From: Cytophagales bacterium
Lineage (GTDB): Bacteria > Bacteroidota > Bacteroidia > Cytophagales > Cyclobacteriaceae
Direction: 5' to 3'
NCBI GenBank assembly: GCA_020402945.1
Contig: JADBYQ010000016.1
Location: forward strand, 1 to 64,000
DNA length: 64,000 bases
The first letter of the stretch is position 1; the number at the start of each line of letters is the position of its first letter. Both the position numbers and the translations under genes were made by a program. The notes beneath the pieces were generated by a model, which saw only the letters and a program-made list of their open reading frames with translations, ran no database searches and was not told where the DNA came from. Shown here in pieces: positions 537-11,631 of the stretch.

Positions 537-1058
537 ATGCCCGGCCATGGAAACGGATTTTTCTTTTTTCTCAGAAGTAGCAGCAGCCATCGGAAAGCGG
601 TTTTAGGCCTCAAAAGTACGGATTACGTGTTTATTTAGCTAACGGGTGGTAGCCTGTCTAACGTAGCCTTTTTAGCCACCGTAGCTTAAGCGAAGATGGT
701 GGCGAAGTTGGACTTGTCCACAGTCGCCAGATCGCTAAAGATCCGAGCGAAAAGGCAGTCGGACGACTTTGGTTTTTGTTAGTAAGTATTTTGTGTGGAC
801 AGGTCTTCTGACCTGACTCTTTAAAAGAGTTTGCTTTAATTGCCCGAGGAATTGAGTTGTTGATTTTGTCTTGAGAAATTTGGTGGCCTGGATTTGCGCT
901 TTCAAAACGTCAGGTCGAAGGAGCCGGCAGCACAGTTTATGGACTAGACTTTATGATGCAAACCATGGCCAACCAAGAGAAATGCTGTGAGAGTTGGAAG
1001 GAGATGTTTTCGTAAGTTTTTTAGAGAACTTTAGCTCTCTCTGATATGTCAATAAATC
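537..1058. other. Gene-free repeat-rich stretch
   Basis: I see no credible coding frame. The stretch holds a loose GCCACC/GGTGGC hairpin around 673-699 and a REP-like doublet at 800-925 that recurs at 4966-5281. It looks like an accumulation site for small repeats rather than a lost gene. Confidence 0.6.
800..925. repeat. REP-like doublet, copy A (uninterrupted)
   Basis: Starts with a hairpin (stem CAGGTC / GACCTG, loop TTCT, 800-815) and ends with a degenerate inverted version near 911-925. The interior from 827 (gagtttgctttaattgcccg...) matches 5183-5281. It contains the sequence TTTAA at 820-824, exactly where copy B at 4966-5281 is interrupted by a 182-bp insertion, so this copy represents the empty site. 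Confidence 0.7.
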
Positions 1059-3773: not shown

Positions 3774-4459
3774 CGATGCAAGAAAAGATTTCGATCGGAT
3801 TAATTGAAGACCAATTTCTTTTCAGGAAAGGCATGAAAGCCATTTTAGAAAGTTGGCCAGAATTTGAAGTTGTGCTAGAAGCATCTGAAGGTTATGCTAT
3901 CTTACCGTTGCTAGCCAATACCGATACGCTGCCGCACGTATTGTTAGTAGATTTGTCGCTACCGGCCACTAAAGAAGGCAAACTCTTTGGTGGCCTCGAA
4001 GTTACCAACGCCATCAAAGCACATTATCCATCCATCAAAATCATAATCCTTTCGGTGCATGACGATGATAACTTCATTGCCGAATTAATTTTGAGTGGTG
4101 CGCACGGATACTTGGTAAAGAATAGCGATCCGCAAGAAGTACACGATGCGATTGTTGCTGCACACACGCAAGGTTCTTACATCAATAAACGGTCGCTTAC
4201 TGCGTTGCAGAAAAGAGCTTCCGGAAACAAAGGCGACAAGGCAAAGCTTGATGGTAACATACAACTTACCAAGCGCGAGGTAGAAATACTGCGGCTGGTA
4301 TGCCAAGAGTTTACCACCGAAGAGATTGCCGAAAAACTTTTTATCAGCGTAAAAACAGTGAACAGCCATCGAAACAGCTTGCTACAAAAAATAGGCTGCC
4401 ACAACTCCGTTGGCTTGGTCAACTTTGCAGTGAAGCATAAATTGATTGAGGCTGGTTAA
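3770..4459 (+). CDS. Response regulator, NarL/LuxR family
   Basis: 229 aa: receiver domain with phosphoacceptor Asp61 (LLVDLSLP) and Lys117, then a LuxR-type helix-turn-helix at about 167-221 (LTKREVEILRLV ... AEKLFISVKTVNSHR). The ATG at 3770 overlaps the kinase stop by four bases (ATGA), which fixes the start and implies translational coupling; the frame extends upstream to 3740 but that part lies inside the kinase gene. It is probably the cognate regulator of the kinase. The stop codon lies at the very edge of a degenerate mobile repeat (4456-4627). Confidence 0.92.
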   Translation: MTMQEKISIGLIEDQFLFRKGMKAILESWPEFEVVLEASEGYAILPLLANTDTLPHVLLVDLSLPATKEGKLFGGLEVTNAIKAHYPSIKIIILSVHDDDNFIAELILSGAHGYLVKNSDPQEVHDAIVAAHTQGSYINKRSLTALQKRASGNKGDKAKLDGNIQLTKREVEILRLVCQEFTTEEIAEKLFISVKTVNSHRNSLLQKIGCHNSVGLVNFAVKHKLIEAG

Positions 4460-4627
4460 ACCCAATTTATACATCAGACTACGTTGATGACTTTTTCCTT
4501 CTAGAAAATCAGTGACTTAAGTTCTACACCACATCATAAGAAATGTTTGAAATAAGACTTACACCATATGCTGATTTTTGTCACTGTACCAAGTAATTGG
4601 TTTCTCTAAAGTATAATCTTGGTAAAT
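4456..4627. repeat. Miniature inverted-repeat element, degenerate copy
   Basis: Core 4461-4622 begins CCCAATTTATACATCAG and ends TAATCTTGG. Its interior aligns with the 4717-4880 element (…GATGACTTTTTCCTTCTAGA versus GATAACTTTTTTCTTCCAGA). Flanks are TTAAA and TAAAT, close to the TTTAA target of the better copies. The left flank includes the TAA stop of the response regulator gene. Confidence 0.65.
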
Positions 4628-4711
4628 ACAAAAAAGCCCCGCTTATTTAAGACAGTGGTGCGATGTGTGATCGATGAAAATAACCTTGTTTCTTTAATCC
4701 CTATTTTTTGT

Positions 4712-4885
4712 TTTAACCCAGATTATGCATTAGATGGCATTGATAACTTTTTTCTTCCAGAGAATCAACGACTTAGGTTCTAAAGCCTAGCATTAGAAAG
4801 GTTTAGAATAAAACTTGATGCAAGGCGTACATTTTCAATGATTTACGGGGTGATTGAGATTCTCTAATGCATAATCTGGGTTTAA
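4712..4885. repeat. Miniature inverted-repeat element, best-preserved copy
   Basis: Core 4717-4880 (164 bp) has perfect terminal inverted repeats: AACCCAGATTATGCATTAG at 4715-4733 and its exact reverse complement at 4864-4882. The core is bounded on both sides by TTTAA (4712-4716 and 4881-4885), a perfect 5-bp target duplication. It has no coding capacity, so it would have to be mobilised in trans. Confidence 0.8.
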
Positions 4886-4965
4886 TGTTTATTCTGTTTG
4901 TAGATGTAGCTTCACGCCTTCGCAGTTTGTTCTCGCGCCCCGAGGACTCCGCGTCTTTTATGTTC

Positions 4966-5281
4966 GGTCAGATATTCTGACCTGACTCTTCAACCCAAAC
5001 TATGCATTAGGAATGCATAGTTTGCCCAGCGGGTTGACGAAAACATTGGTTTCCAATGTTTTGTCAAGGTTAAACCCTGACAATGAAAATCACCAACTTG
5101 GTTTTCTTAACTGGGGCTAAATCGTTGATTTTCATTCGTCAATTATGCAATAGAATTTCTATTGCATAATCTGGGTCTAAATGAGTTTGCTTTAATTGCC
5201 CGAGGAATTGAGTTTTTGATTTTGGCATGAGAAATTTGGTGCCTGGATTTGCATTTTCAAAACGTCAGGTCGGAAGACCTG
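4966..5281. repeat. REP-like doublet, copy B (interrupted)
   Basis: Left hairpin GGTCAGA/TCTGACC at 4966-4982, right hairpin CAGGTC/GACCTG at 5266-5281. The outer parts align with 800-925. Between them, 4989-5180 is a mobile element and flank duplication absent from copy A. The two ends are inverted relative to each other: GTCAGGTCGGAAGACCTG on the right is nearly the reverse complement of the left end of copy A. Confidence 0.75.
4989..5180. repeat. Miniature inverted-repeat element inserted into REP-like copy B
   Basis: Core 4994-5175 (182 bp). The ends CCCAAACTATGCATTAG and CTATTGCATAATCTGGG are inverted. The flanks TTCAA and TCTAA each differ by one base from the TTTAA found at the corresponding empty site (820-824). 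Inside are nested hairpins: 4996-5008/5012-5024, 5034-5049/5053-5067 (one bulge), and 5142-5154/5158-5170. It is non-coding. Confidence 0.8.
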
Positions 5282-5336
5282 ATGACACAGCTATAATACT
5301 TTCAACAAGTTTGTACTATTTGGTATATTTCGAATA

Positions 5337-7487
5337 ATGTTAGGTATTTCAAGATCGATCTTCGTGGGTTTACTGTTGTTGTTTCCCACACTTCTTTTGG
5401 CACAAGGAGCAGCTGGTGTTGTGGTTTCCCAACGGAACGGAATTACAGATATCTTAAACGCAGCCGAAGTGGTTCAATCGCAAGAACCTGATCCGGCCAA
5501 AGCAGCAAGCCTGAGTTTTTCAAAGCTTAATGATGAAACGTTTAAAGATTTTAACGGCTGGTTAAGATTTAGTATTTCAAATAAAGATGTGAAGGATTCT
5601 GTTTTTATTCTACAGGATCGGGCTAATAATAATCCCATCTTTAGTCTTTATCAAAAAAGTGTTGATGCTGACTTGTGGCTTCCTATTTCAAACAATGGCC
5701 ACGTTCGTTTTCCTGTTAATGTATTCGGAAGGGCGGTTGTGGTGCCTAAGGGAACTACCCGGCAATTTCTGCTGAGGTTCGCCAGAAACCCATATGAAAA
5801 TATTACCTACCTAGCTGTTATTCCTTTCCATTTACAGTATGATGGCGGCAAGAACCACATTTCAATTTTTCTTGCCATTGCCCTGACCATGATAGCCCTT
5901 TATCATTTTGCCATCTATCTGCTCAGCAAAGTGAGAATGTACATCATTCATGCGCTCTACTCAATTCTTTTTGTTGTATTTATGGTCACTACAAACCCGT
6001 GGCTGTATTATTGGGTAAGCAGCGTTTTTAGTATCAAATTGCTATTTGATATCAATCTCATTTCTTCGGTACTTGTGCTTGGCGCTTACGGGGAATTTGT
6101 TTACGTTTTCTTAGATGCAAAGACCCGGTTCCCCCAATTGCGGAAATGGCATTCAGGATTTCTTATTTTAACCATCTTGTCCACCTTACTAATTATTTAC
6201 ATTCAGGTTCGATACAATGCTTTTTTCATTTCACGCGACATTACTGTTGGGTTTTGTCTTCTCTCGTTTACTACAATAACTGCCTTTCTCTTTGTTGCGT
6301 TTAGAAAAAACGTAAGAGCAGATTATTTTCTACTTATTGGCTCCTTAGTGCTGTGGAGCAGCATACTGTTTGGCATATATATTCTTTACAAAGAATTCTA
6401 TACCGATATTTTTCTGATCATCGCTTATGGGACAATTGTCGAAATCCTAATTTTCGCTTTGGGTATCGGGTACAAGTTGCAGCTAGAATCACGGGCAAGA
6501 ATAGATCAGCAGGTTAAATTTAACCAGGAACTGGAGGAGCAGGTATTGCAACGGACACGTCAGATTCAAGAGCAGAAAGAAGAGATAGTTACACAGAACG
6601 AGGAGTTAATCAGTCAACGCGAAGAAATTGCTGCGCAAAACGAGGAACTAATACAAGGGCAAGAAGAGATAGCCGCCCAGCGTGACCAAATGGCCTATCA
6701 AAATGTGCAACTGAAAGAGGCCCAGACTATTATTGAAGAACAGAATCAGGATATTCTTTTAAGAAATGTGAATTTGGAGGAGGAAGTAAAAAAGAGAACA
6801 AGGGAACTTACCGACTACAATCTTCAATTAGAGCAATTTGCTTTTATTGCATCGCATAACCTTCGTGCGCCTGTAGCAAGGATTCTAGGCTTATCACATT
6901 TGCTTACACTGCAACAGGTAAATCTGACGGAAAAAGAATTGATCATACAGAAAATGATTTTCAGTTGTGCTGAGTTGGACACGATCGTCAAAGACCTTGG
7001 ACAAATCTTGGAGATACGCGAAAACCTCAGCCAAACAATAACGGAAGTTAATCTCCAGAAGGAGTTAGTTATCACATTAAATGGTCTTGAGAATGATATT
7101 CTGCAATCCAAGGCCGTGATAGACATCAACTTTGAAAAGGTTGATACGGTGCATACGATCCGCCCCTATTTGCAAAGCATCCTGCTAAACCTATTGAGCA
7201 ATGCCATCAAGTATCGTCATCCTGATCGACCTCCTCACATACAAATTTCTTCAGCTATTGTAGACAATAAAGTAGAAATTGATTTCCGCGACAATGGGTT
7301 GGGTATAGACTTGCCGCAATACGGAGAAAAGCTTTTTAAGCTATACAACCGATTTCATTTTCATGTGGAAGGCAAGGGCAAAGGATTGTTTCTGGTGAAA
7401 ACCCATGTTGATGCTATGGGTGGAACGCTGGAGGTGCAAAGCAAGGTGAATGAAGGAACAGTCTTTAAGATATTCCTAAAAAATTAG
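5337..7487 (+). CDS. Sensor histidine kinase with 7TMR-DISM sensor region
   Basis: 716 aa. Signal peptide 1-23, a periplasmic beta-rich domain (about 24-170) of 7TMR-DISM extracellular type, seven hydrophobic helices (about 175-380), a long coiled coil (about 390-495), HisKA with His507 in FIASHNLRAPVARI, and HATPase_c with LLNLLSNAIKYRH, DNGLGID and GKGLFLV. The coiled coil repeats the phrase EEIxxQNEEL. No receiver domain or adjacent regulator is present, so the partner must be encoded elsewhere. The gene starts about 50 bp after REP-like copy B, so repeats may affect its promoter region. Confidence 0.9.
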   Translation: MLGISRSIFVGLLLLFPTLLLAQGAAGVVVSQRNGITDILNAAEVVQSQEPDPAKAASLSFSKLNDETFKDFNGWLRFSISNKDVKDSVFILQDRANNNPIFSLYQKSVDADLWLPISNNGHVRFPVNVFGRAVVVPKGTTRQFLLRFARNPYENITYLAVIPFHLQYDGGKNHISIFLAIALTMIALYHFAIYLLSKVRMYIIHALYSILFVVFMVTTNPWLYYWVSSVFSIKLLFDINLISSVLVLGAYGEFVYVFLDAKTRFPQLRKWHSGFLILTILSTLLIIYIQVRYNAFFISRDITVGFCLLSFTTITAFLFVAFRKNVRADYFLLIGSLVLWSSILFGIYILYKEFYTDIFLIIAYGTIVEILIFALGIGYKLQLESRARIDQQVKFNQELEEQVLQRTRQIQEQKEEIVTQNEELISQREEIAAQNEELIQGQEEIAAQRDQMAYQNVQLKEAQTIIEEQNQDILLRNVNLEEEVKKRTRELTDYNLQLEQFAFIASHNLRAPVARILGLSHLLTLQQVNLTEKELIIQKMIFSCAELDTIVKDLGQILEIRENLSQTITEVNLQKELVITLNGLENDILQSKAVIDINFEKVDTVHTIRPYLQSILLNLLSNAIKYRHPDRPPHIQISSAIVDNKVEIDFRDNGLGIDLPQYGEKLFKLYNRFHFHVEGKGKGLFLVKTHVDAMGGTLEVQSKVNEGTVFKIFLKN

Positions 7488-7544
7488 TAGCCTTTGCTAT
7501 CGTCACAAACTATTTAAAATAATTATAATCAGAACTTTCTATAA

Positions 7545-9578
<2,034 letters not shown>

Positions 9579-11008: not shown

Positions 11009-11350
11009 ATGAGAAAATCAGAAAAAACTGTTTAAGAGCGAGAAGCTATGATAGCAGCGTATTTGTTGGGCGATACCACGTATCGTAAATTAGGGGTCAA
11101 ATATGGGGTTGACTTCAGAGCCATCTATCATTGGGTAACAAGATTTCAAGGAAAACCAATGAAGAAAATAAACCCCAAAATCAAATCAGCTGATGAACTT
11201 GCTCAGGATGATTTGCCTACTAATTTAAAGCAATTACAGGAAGAACTTCGCAAAGCAAAGCTGCACAACAAGTTGCTCAATGCTATCATTGACATTGCCG
11301 AGGGGCGACTTAAAATCGATATCCGAAAAAAGCCTGGTACCAAGCAGTAG
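11009..11350 (+). pseudogene. IS3-type transposase OrfA remnant (HTH), with internal stop
   Basis: In one frame from ATG 11009 the sequence reads MRKSEKTV, then TAA (11033-11035), then continues EREAMIAAYLLGDTTYRKLGVKYGVD-like text to 11350. The readable part is a helix-turn-helix (TYRKLGVKYGVDFRAIYHW) followed by a leucine-rich coiled coil, as in IS3-family OrfA. No OrfB/DDE integrase follows. An open frame of 100 aa from 11048 remains but probably represents a dead fragment. Confidence 0.65.
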
Positions 11351-11631
11351 AGCAGGTAGGACAAAGTACGCCTCGTTGTATAAACGAGCTTTGTTGCATT
11401 GTCATCCGAGTAAATTATAAATTGAGAGAGGGAAAGCGCGGAGGGGGTGGCTTTGAGAGTCCAAAAAAATCCTCTTGAATGAGTCAGAATACCAATATTT
11501 TTCAAAAGCTTAATTTTAGTCGGATGACAGTAATTCTATTGCATGATTTGGGTTGAAATTGTTGCGAATAATTTCCTATTTTGTATTGGTTCAGACAACC
11601 CTGTTTAGTATTCACGTAGCATTTTTATACT
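11351..11631. other. Intergenic region with mobile-element debris
   Basis: Contains a 10-bp inverted repeat TGTCATCCGA / TCGGATGACA (11400-11409 and 11520-11529). It also holds an orphan end resembling the miniature element right terminus (CTATTGCATGATTTGGG, 11536-11552, then TTGAA). No matching left end is visible. No gene is recognised. Confidence 0.5.

Follow-up and report, generated by a model that had tools for sequence, protein, structure and literature searches.

A 64,000-nucleotide stretch of DNA from a Cytophagales bacterium (hereafter the window) carries two versions of a REP-like doublet, one of which is split by 182 bp of additional DNA. This arrangement raises the question of whether the additional segment is a mobile element that inserted at this site and, if so, what kind of element it is and which enzyme might have moved it. 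The segment spans 4994–5175 on the plus strand, starts with CCCA and ends with TGGG, and is bounded by 17-bp terminal inverted repeats that are identical at 14 of 17 positions, namely CCCAAACTATGCATTAG at 4994–5010 and, on the minus strand, CCCAGATTATGCAATAG at 5159–5175. It is flanked on the left by the pentamer TTCAA (4989–4993, plus strand) and on the right by TCTAA (5176–5180, plus strand), which differs from the left copy at two of five positions. Among the listed ORFs, all of which are at least 90 amino acids long, none overlaps the segment.

A sequence-only reading of the window had proposed a miniature inverted-repeat element (MITE) accompanied by its own empty site, and its coordinates for the core, for the flanks and for the empty-site pentamer TTTAA at 820–824 proved correct when the letters were read again. 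The interrupted doublet, with limits taken from that reading, covers 4966–5281, and the empty paralogue covers 800–935 (both plus strand), with TTTAA unbroken. The claim that the core interrupts a doublet whose flanks then resume is borne out by three partial matches, in which 789–824 aligns with 4958–4993 at 81%, 822–885 with 5178–5241 at 94%, and 877–935 with 5232–5290 at 76%. When the doublet was used as a query against the whole 4.38-Mb, 136-contig genome (E <= 0.001), just two places were returned: 800–935 and the interrupted site.

Relatives within the same genus provide an independent view of the locus. The protein of 5337–7487 has a 96% identical relative in genome G042 and a 93% identical one in G025. 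The G042 DNA is collinear with window positions 5178–7563, with no break and at 94.7% identity, and directly upstream of this stretch it reads GACCTGACCCCTTAAATGAGTTTCC, a doublet that lacks the 182-bp core; a search of G042 for the element gave no match at E <= 1e-6. Given that this orthologous site is empty, the insertion is backed by a relative, beyond the comparison that can be made within the window. The idea that the target was TTTAA fares less evenly, since the paralogue has exactly this pentamer but the G042 pentamer, placed in register by eye, is CTTAA, from which each flank of the element is two changes away. At the same intergenic site, G025 has by eye a single REP-type palindrome, with neither the core nor the doublet interior.

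One could instead take the 182-bp segment to be part of a larger REP-type repeat, in which case the empty doublet would be a deletion derivative. REP-like palindromes do flank the segment, palindromes are prone to deletion, and the single palindrome seen by eye in G025 could be viewed in the same light. Yet the paralogous and orthologous empty doublets both keep an unbroken junction that contains TTAA, and elsewhere the 182-bp unit has different flanks in which 5 bp are exactly duplicated. We judge the deletion reading to be largely refuted and highly improbable. The related candidate in which doublet and core travel as one unit, which the sequence-only reading had named as a way in which it might be wrong, is ruled out, given that the doublet is empty both at 800–935 and in G042 and that the core stands in other flanks elsewhere. 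We consider it confirmed that a 182-bp non-coding element was truly inserted at the window site.

The distribution of related copies establishes the family to which this element belongs. Matches to the core in its own genome include a full copy on contig C94 (98%), a copy on C28 (89%) and several that are partial or longer, and matches at E <= 1e-6 are present in 18 of 62 genomes of the genus, its own included. The genus scan scored up to 13 candidates per genome, and a per-genome count of 13 is to be read as at least 13. We viewed 47 loci, of which 40 came from the genus matches and seven from the window's own genome; 13 were dropped because one end was absent, ambiguous or truncated at the edge of a contig, and 34 copies were delineated. 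Removal of G083:C44, whose flanks are the same as those of G036:C40, left 33 independent copies. Several copy boundaries were adjusted by hand, and in one case (G33_53) a shift of one base meant that what had looked like an exact TTTAT pair was scored as unequal.

Identical 5-bp flanks border 20 of these 33 copies. When the right flanks were shuffled 10,000 times, this number averaged 3.65 and never exceeded 12, and the same copies exhibit no excess of equal flanks at 2, 3, 4, 6, 7 or 8 bp. The boundaries are mostly AT-rich pentamers of the TTNAA type, in keeping with the TTTAA-type boundaries that the sequence-only reading had suggested looking for. Its inference of a 5-bp target duplication is upheld for the family, in which the own-genome copies on C94 and C28 have exact duplications, but the window copy, with flanks that differ at two of five positions, is by itself no proof and falls among the 13 copies without exact flanks. 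An exact 40-base pattern drawn from hairpins H3 and H4 (described below), which misses divergent copies, was found in 25 stretches of six MAGs titled Cytophagales, Flammeovirgaceae, Cyclobacteriaceae or Bacteroidetes bacterium, a tally that may leave out the window's own genome. The element is short and non-coding, has inverted ends, belongs to a family with target duplications and dispersed copies, and is matched by empty sites, and it is on these grounds a MITE.

Recombination between MITE copies was considered as a source of unequal flanks, and one copy in another genome has flanks of mixed origin. At locus L178 (G025:C100:11048-11623), the left flank is that of own contig C28 (200/200) and the right flank is that of G050:C281 (72/72). 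This combination fits recombination between MITE copies, and it also fits chimeric assembly at a repeat, because 100% identity spans genomes of different species. For the window copy, both flanks are part of the doublet.

The surroundings of the element contain further MITEs and repeats. A second MITE of 164 bp, which the sequence-only reading did not mention, lies 113 bp upstream at 4717–4880 (plus strand); it has a different body, inverted ends CCCAGATTATGCATTAGA that agree at 18 of 18 positions, and TTTAA target duplications at 4712–4716 and 4881–4885 (both plus strand). Exact duplications border both of the two copies of this 164-bp family in its own genome, and relatives occur in 6 of the 62 genus genomes. 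A third MITE family, with ends CCCARATTTTGCA, has exact flanks in five of nine own-genome copies, as counted by eye. Its members are 140–181 bp long and form strong nested hairpins with swapped tips of their own; among them are loci L079, L077, L086 and L083, together with others, on own contigs C46, C87, C131, C35, C47, C99 and C104. The right-end remnant of a related MITE, reading TGCATGATTTGGG and then TTGAA, occupies 11534–11552 (plus strand), and the region 11048–11557 holds a fragment that weakly resembles an IS3-type transposase (20.3 bits against NF033516, far under the cutoff) adjoining this remnant.

At the start of the window, positions 1–125, 241–272 and 411–535 hold a 125-bp direct repeat (98%) with palindromes GTTGGTCGGGAGACCAAC, a possible REP/RAYT remnant. 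A RAYT gene near the REP palindromes at 1–540 seemed likely by eye but found no support in Pfam or NCBIfam: the 60-amino-acid frame at 319–498, RAYT-like by eye, matched no model of either collection up to E = 1. On a separate 3.2-kb contig of the same genome (C58, locus L072), three dispersed GTATTTGCGTCAAGCGGGGTTGACGCGTAATCC repeats accompany a 414-amino-acid frame that appears transposase-like by eye.

The body of the 182-bp element consists of four hairpins with covariation, which can form on either strand and which the sequence-only reading did not describe. The first (H1, 4996–5024) has an outer arm that overlaps the left terminal repeat, and four of its 13 pairs are changed on both sides. 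The second (H2, 5034–5067) combines a constant base, TTGAC/GTCAA, with an exchangeable palindromic tip. The third (H3, 5079–5140) has the stem GACAATGAAAATCA/TGATTTTCATTCGTC, in which 98.3% of cells are paired without any double changes, and because this stem is conserved in sequence it says nothing about folding. The fourth (H4, 5142–5170) forms the inner part of the right end; all four are given on the plus strand. In the alignment of the 33 copies, standard pairs fill 90.3% of cells versus 84.7% in shuffles, and 121 cells are changed on both sides versus 43. The number of further pair types, one of five measures, was 60 against 57.5 in shuffles, a value reached by 95 of 500 and not significant. 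Slid structures were at most 43.3% paired, in a control that favours the structure tested, as this was drawn from the window copy. The H2 tip is 67.9% paired within copies but 35.8% when the arms are taken from different copies, whereas the gap is smaller for H1 (83.4 vs 75.1%) and H4 (91.4 vs 85.6%).

Such a fold could also be expected of a structured RNA gene or a regulatory RNA module that was spread by a transposase and retained for its transcript. The four hairpins, the fold z-scores of −1.7 to −10.6 (33 copies, 60 shuffles each), the excess of double-changed cells and the near-invariance of H3 would all suit such an RNA, and when the poorly aligned H2 tip is left aside, G-T cells outnumber A-C cells by 44 to 32, which is a mild lean towards the plus strand. 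Across all five stems, though, the two counts are 48 and 51, just 18 of 33 copies give the better fold on the plus strand (Wilcoxon p = 0.32), and positions 4400–5400 contain no Rfam match up to E = 1. Since the strands fold about equally, G-T and A-C cells are balanced and Rfam offers no match, we do not prefer this interpretation and consider it distinctly unlikely.

The sequence-only reading had also recommended a search for an autonomous transposase with the same ends. Such an effort leads to elements of the IS1380 family in the genus, a family which that reading had not named, whose ends are similar and whose connection to the MITE lies in end type and target type. The likeness, as judged by eye, is confined to the ends. 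An intact G025 element (G025:C122) provides the best match with its right end, CTAATGCATAATCTGGG, whereas its left end, CCCAGATTATTCATTCGG, is less alike. Published reports, in the parts available to us, indicate that ISEcp1, an IS1380 member, produces a 5-bp duplication (PMC2887853) and that this family mobilises resistance genes through ISEcp1 (PMC9330008). G042 contains a sister subtype with CCCAGATTTTGCA-type ends, and 13 of the 15 copies examined, out of 20 full-length copies listed, are bordered by exact duplications of 5 bp, for example TTAAA, TTCAA, TTTAA and ATGAA. An intact relative in G034 encodes a 439-amino-acid transposase whose score against the IS1380 model NF033539 is 246.1 bits, where the cutoff is 180; with PF13701, for which the cutoff is 34.7, it reaches 149.6 bits. 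No solved structure matched this protein by sequence.

In the window's own genome, a search with PF13701 yielded degraded IS1380-like copies on C100 and C57, and contig C2 holds a decayed remnant in which CCCAGATTATGCATTAGAGAA adjoins part of a coding sequence that shares 61% identity with the G025 transposase. Because the own-genome IS1380 with the best-matching end is such a remnant, the window copy of the MITE may no longer move. The IS1380 ends CCCAAATTACGCAATAG and CTAATGCGTAATCTGGG are located at many contig edges of this genome, and at least 8 of 10 long left-end matches are no more than 11 bases away from a contig end, the pattern to be expected if a multi-copy element was collapsed in assembly.

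The MITE might alternatively be moved by a transposase outside the IS1380 family. Of the 18 MITE-positive genomes, 5 have an IS1380 match at E <= 1e-5, as do 5 of the 44 that are MITE-negative, a difference that is not significant (Fisher p = 0.14), and thus 13 of the 18 MITE-positive genomes show no such match, among them G033, for which at least 13 MITE matches are listed. Moreover, the intact IS1380 copy with the best-matching right end, G025:C122, has unequal flanks (TTTAA on the left and ATAAA on the right), as does the copy in G083:C9 (TTTAT and TTAAA). Absence from those 13 genomes is qualified by the possibility that fragmented assemblies hide collapsed IS copies, given that repeats of IS size are easily lost from them, as the left ends at contig ends in the window's own genome illustrate, and the end and target types of the MITE match those of the IS1380 elements in the genus. 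We therefore consider a transposase of another family unlikely. On the basis of these shared end and target types, an IS1380-family enzyme is the likely mobiliser.

A less ordinary characteristic of the family concerns the tips of its hairpins. Seven pairs of copies, in each of which the two members agree at 157 of 159 positions once the tip is left aside, carry unrelated palindromes at the tip of H2, which is of the type AAAACATTGG...CCAATGTTTT (or a one-base variant), ATCCGCC...GGCGGAT, or AATACTGACGG...CCGTCAGTATT. Such wholesale tip replacement is unusual for a miniature transposon that is ordinary in other respects. The third-family MITE L079 likewise contains a 22-mer of the third palindrome, AATACTGACGGTACCGTCAGTA, such that one tip palindrome is common to two MITE families with different ends, and a near match to the same palindrome forms the H4 tip of the copy on own contig C42. 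This C42 copy (locus L088) is 226 bp long, with an extra hairpin module, a different H4 tip and flanks that are inverted rather than direct (ATAAA / TTTAT). In another copy (L196, G033:C55), H2 is wholly absent, the sequence reads GGGTTGACAAGG, and the flanks are exact (TTTAT).

The palindrome TCCGCCTNAGGCGGA is also dispersed outside the MITEs. It is present at six exact places in the window's own genome, two of which are MITE copies (C28 and C42), and at five more places with one mismatch, one of which is a MITE (C111); a reversed control of the pattern found none in the same genome. Neither TCCGCCTNAGGCGGA (up to two mismatches) nor CTGACGGTACCGTCAG (up to three) is present in the window. 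The places outside MITEs are a doublet on C13, tandem tRNA-like repeats at the contig ends of C102 and C114, a cobalamin riboswitch (C59, L309) and, with one mismatch, 23S rRNA (C8, L311). Rfam and ARAGORN confirm the cobalamin riboswitch, the 23S rRNA and one intact tRNA-Met. In the Rfam alignments of the riboswitch and of the rRNA alike, the palindrome falls on a consensus helix, and thus convergence is possible; insertion of a tip palindrome into these two RNAs figures here only as part of the tentative idea on mobile tips given below. In the tRNA-like repeats of C102 and C114 (L310 and L312), which perhaps represent one array split by assembly, TCCGCC..GGCGGA and CCTGCC..GGCAGG appear by eye to replace or interrupt parts of the tRNA, and in L312 the intact tRNA-Met stands beside the repeats.

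It is tempting to view the tips as mobile micro-palindromes of about 15–24 bp that move into the loops of hairpins already present or are copied from one such loop to another. We advance this idea only tentatively and consider it doubtful. If it is true, tip-targeting palindrome mobility would operate on both mobile and host structured sequences.

With these considerations in mind, our verdict is that the element is a new MITE, of the IS1380 type, whose hairpin body is modular. We assign a probability of roughly 85% to the reading in which the MITE inserted into the doublet with a 5-bp duplication, an IS1380-family transposase is the likely mobiliser, and the hairpin tips were swapped as blocks. 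An IS1380-family DDE transposase, supplied in trans, would use the CCCA-type ends and join the element to a TTWAA-like target with a 5-bp stagger; how the ends are recognised and the strands transferred would follow the pattern of the IS1380 family. In this reading the element entered the REP-like doublet centrally, at a pentamer resembling TTTAA or CTTAA, with 5 bp duplicated, and the two flanking copies have diverged since. The four-hairpin body behaves as palindromic DNA whose tips have undergone blockwise replacement, most likely by recombination with, or insertion of, other short palindromes; the main alternative for the tip changes would be template switching at a cruciform.

The main finding is thus a sound and fairly ordinary MITE, probably of the IS1380 type, to which the modular hairpin tips add some interest. 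Filled and empty sites, related copies and a candidate parent element connect IS1380 with a family of MITEs in a genus of Bacteroidota. We met no IS1380-derived MITE in those portions of the literature on IS1380 and on MITEs that were available to us, although one may still be in print. Blockwise replacement of tips with the stems still paired amounts to a natural experiment in the evolution of palindromic DNA, which could separate selection for folding, template switching and the insertion of small palindromes. A short GC-rich palindrome, moreover, is common to MITEs and other structured sequences of one genome.

Several known systems share some of these characteristics. As with the IS1380 family, which includes ISEcp1 and its relatives, target duplications are 5 bp long and AT-rich, and a transposase of the genus scores above the NCBIfam cutoff; the window element, in contrast, has no transposase gene and resembles these insertion sequences by eye only at its ends. 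Small dispersed repeats of cyanobacteria and GC clusters of yeast mitochondria are likewise short palindromes that reside inside structured RNA genes or other repeats, whereas here the palindromes replace the hairpin tips of a MITE and their mobility is only putative. The Correia/NEMIS, ERIC and RUP elements, as covered in the accessible part of a review (PMC2229807), are similar in their length of 100–200 bp, inverted ends, target duplications and strong base-pairing. Judged against that account, the window MITE differs by its 5-bp TTNAA-like duplication in place of TA-type ends, by its several separate hairpins in place of one end-to-end stem, and by its exchangeable tips. BrickBuilt of Porphyromonas, whose terminal inverted repeats resemble ISPg1, ISPg9 and ISPg4 (PMC4596501), and MITECca01 of Cardinium, which resembles an IS982-family element (PMC9769881), are IS-like miniature elements of the same phylum; swappable tips like those of the window MITE were not found for them in the available parts of these two reports. 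REP palindromes and REPINs, as described in the accessible part of PMC3733652, are comparable in being short dispersed palindromes that form doublets. One MITE tip palindrome of the present genome is found outside MITEs too, and the element in the window is set apart from them by its IS1380-like ends and the 5-bp duplications of its family.
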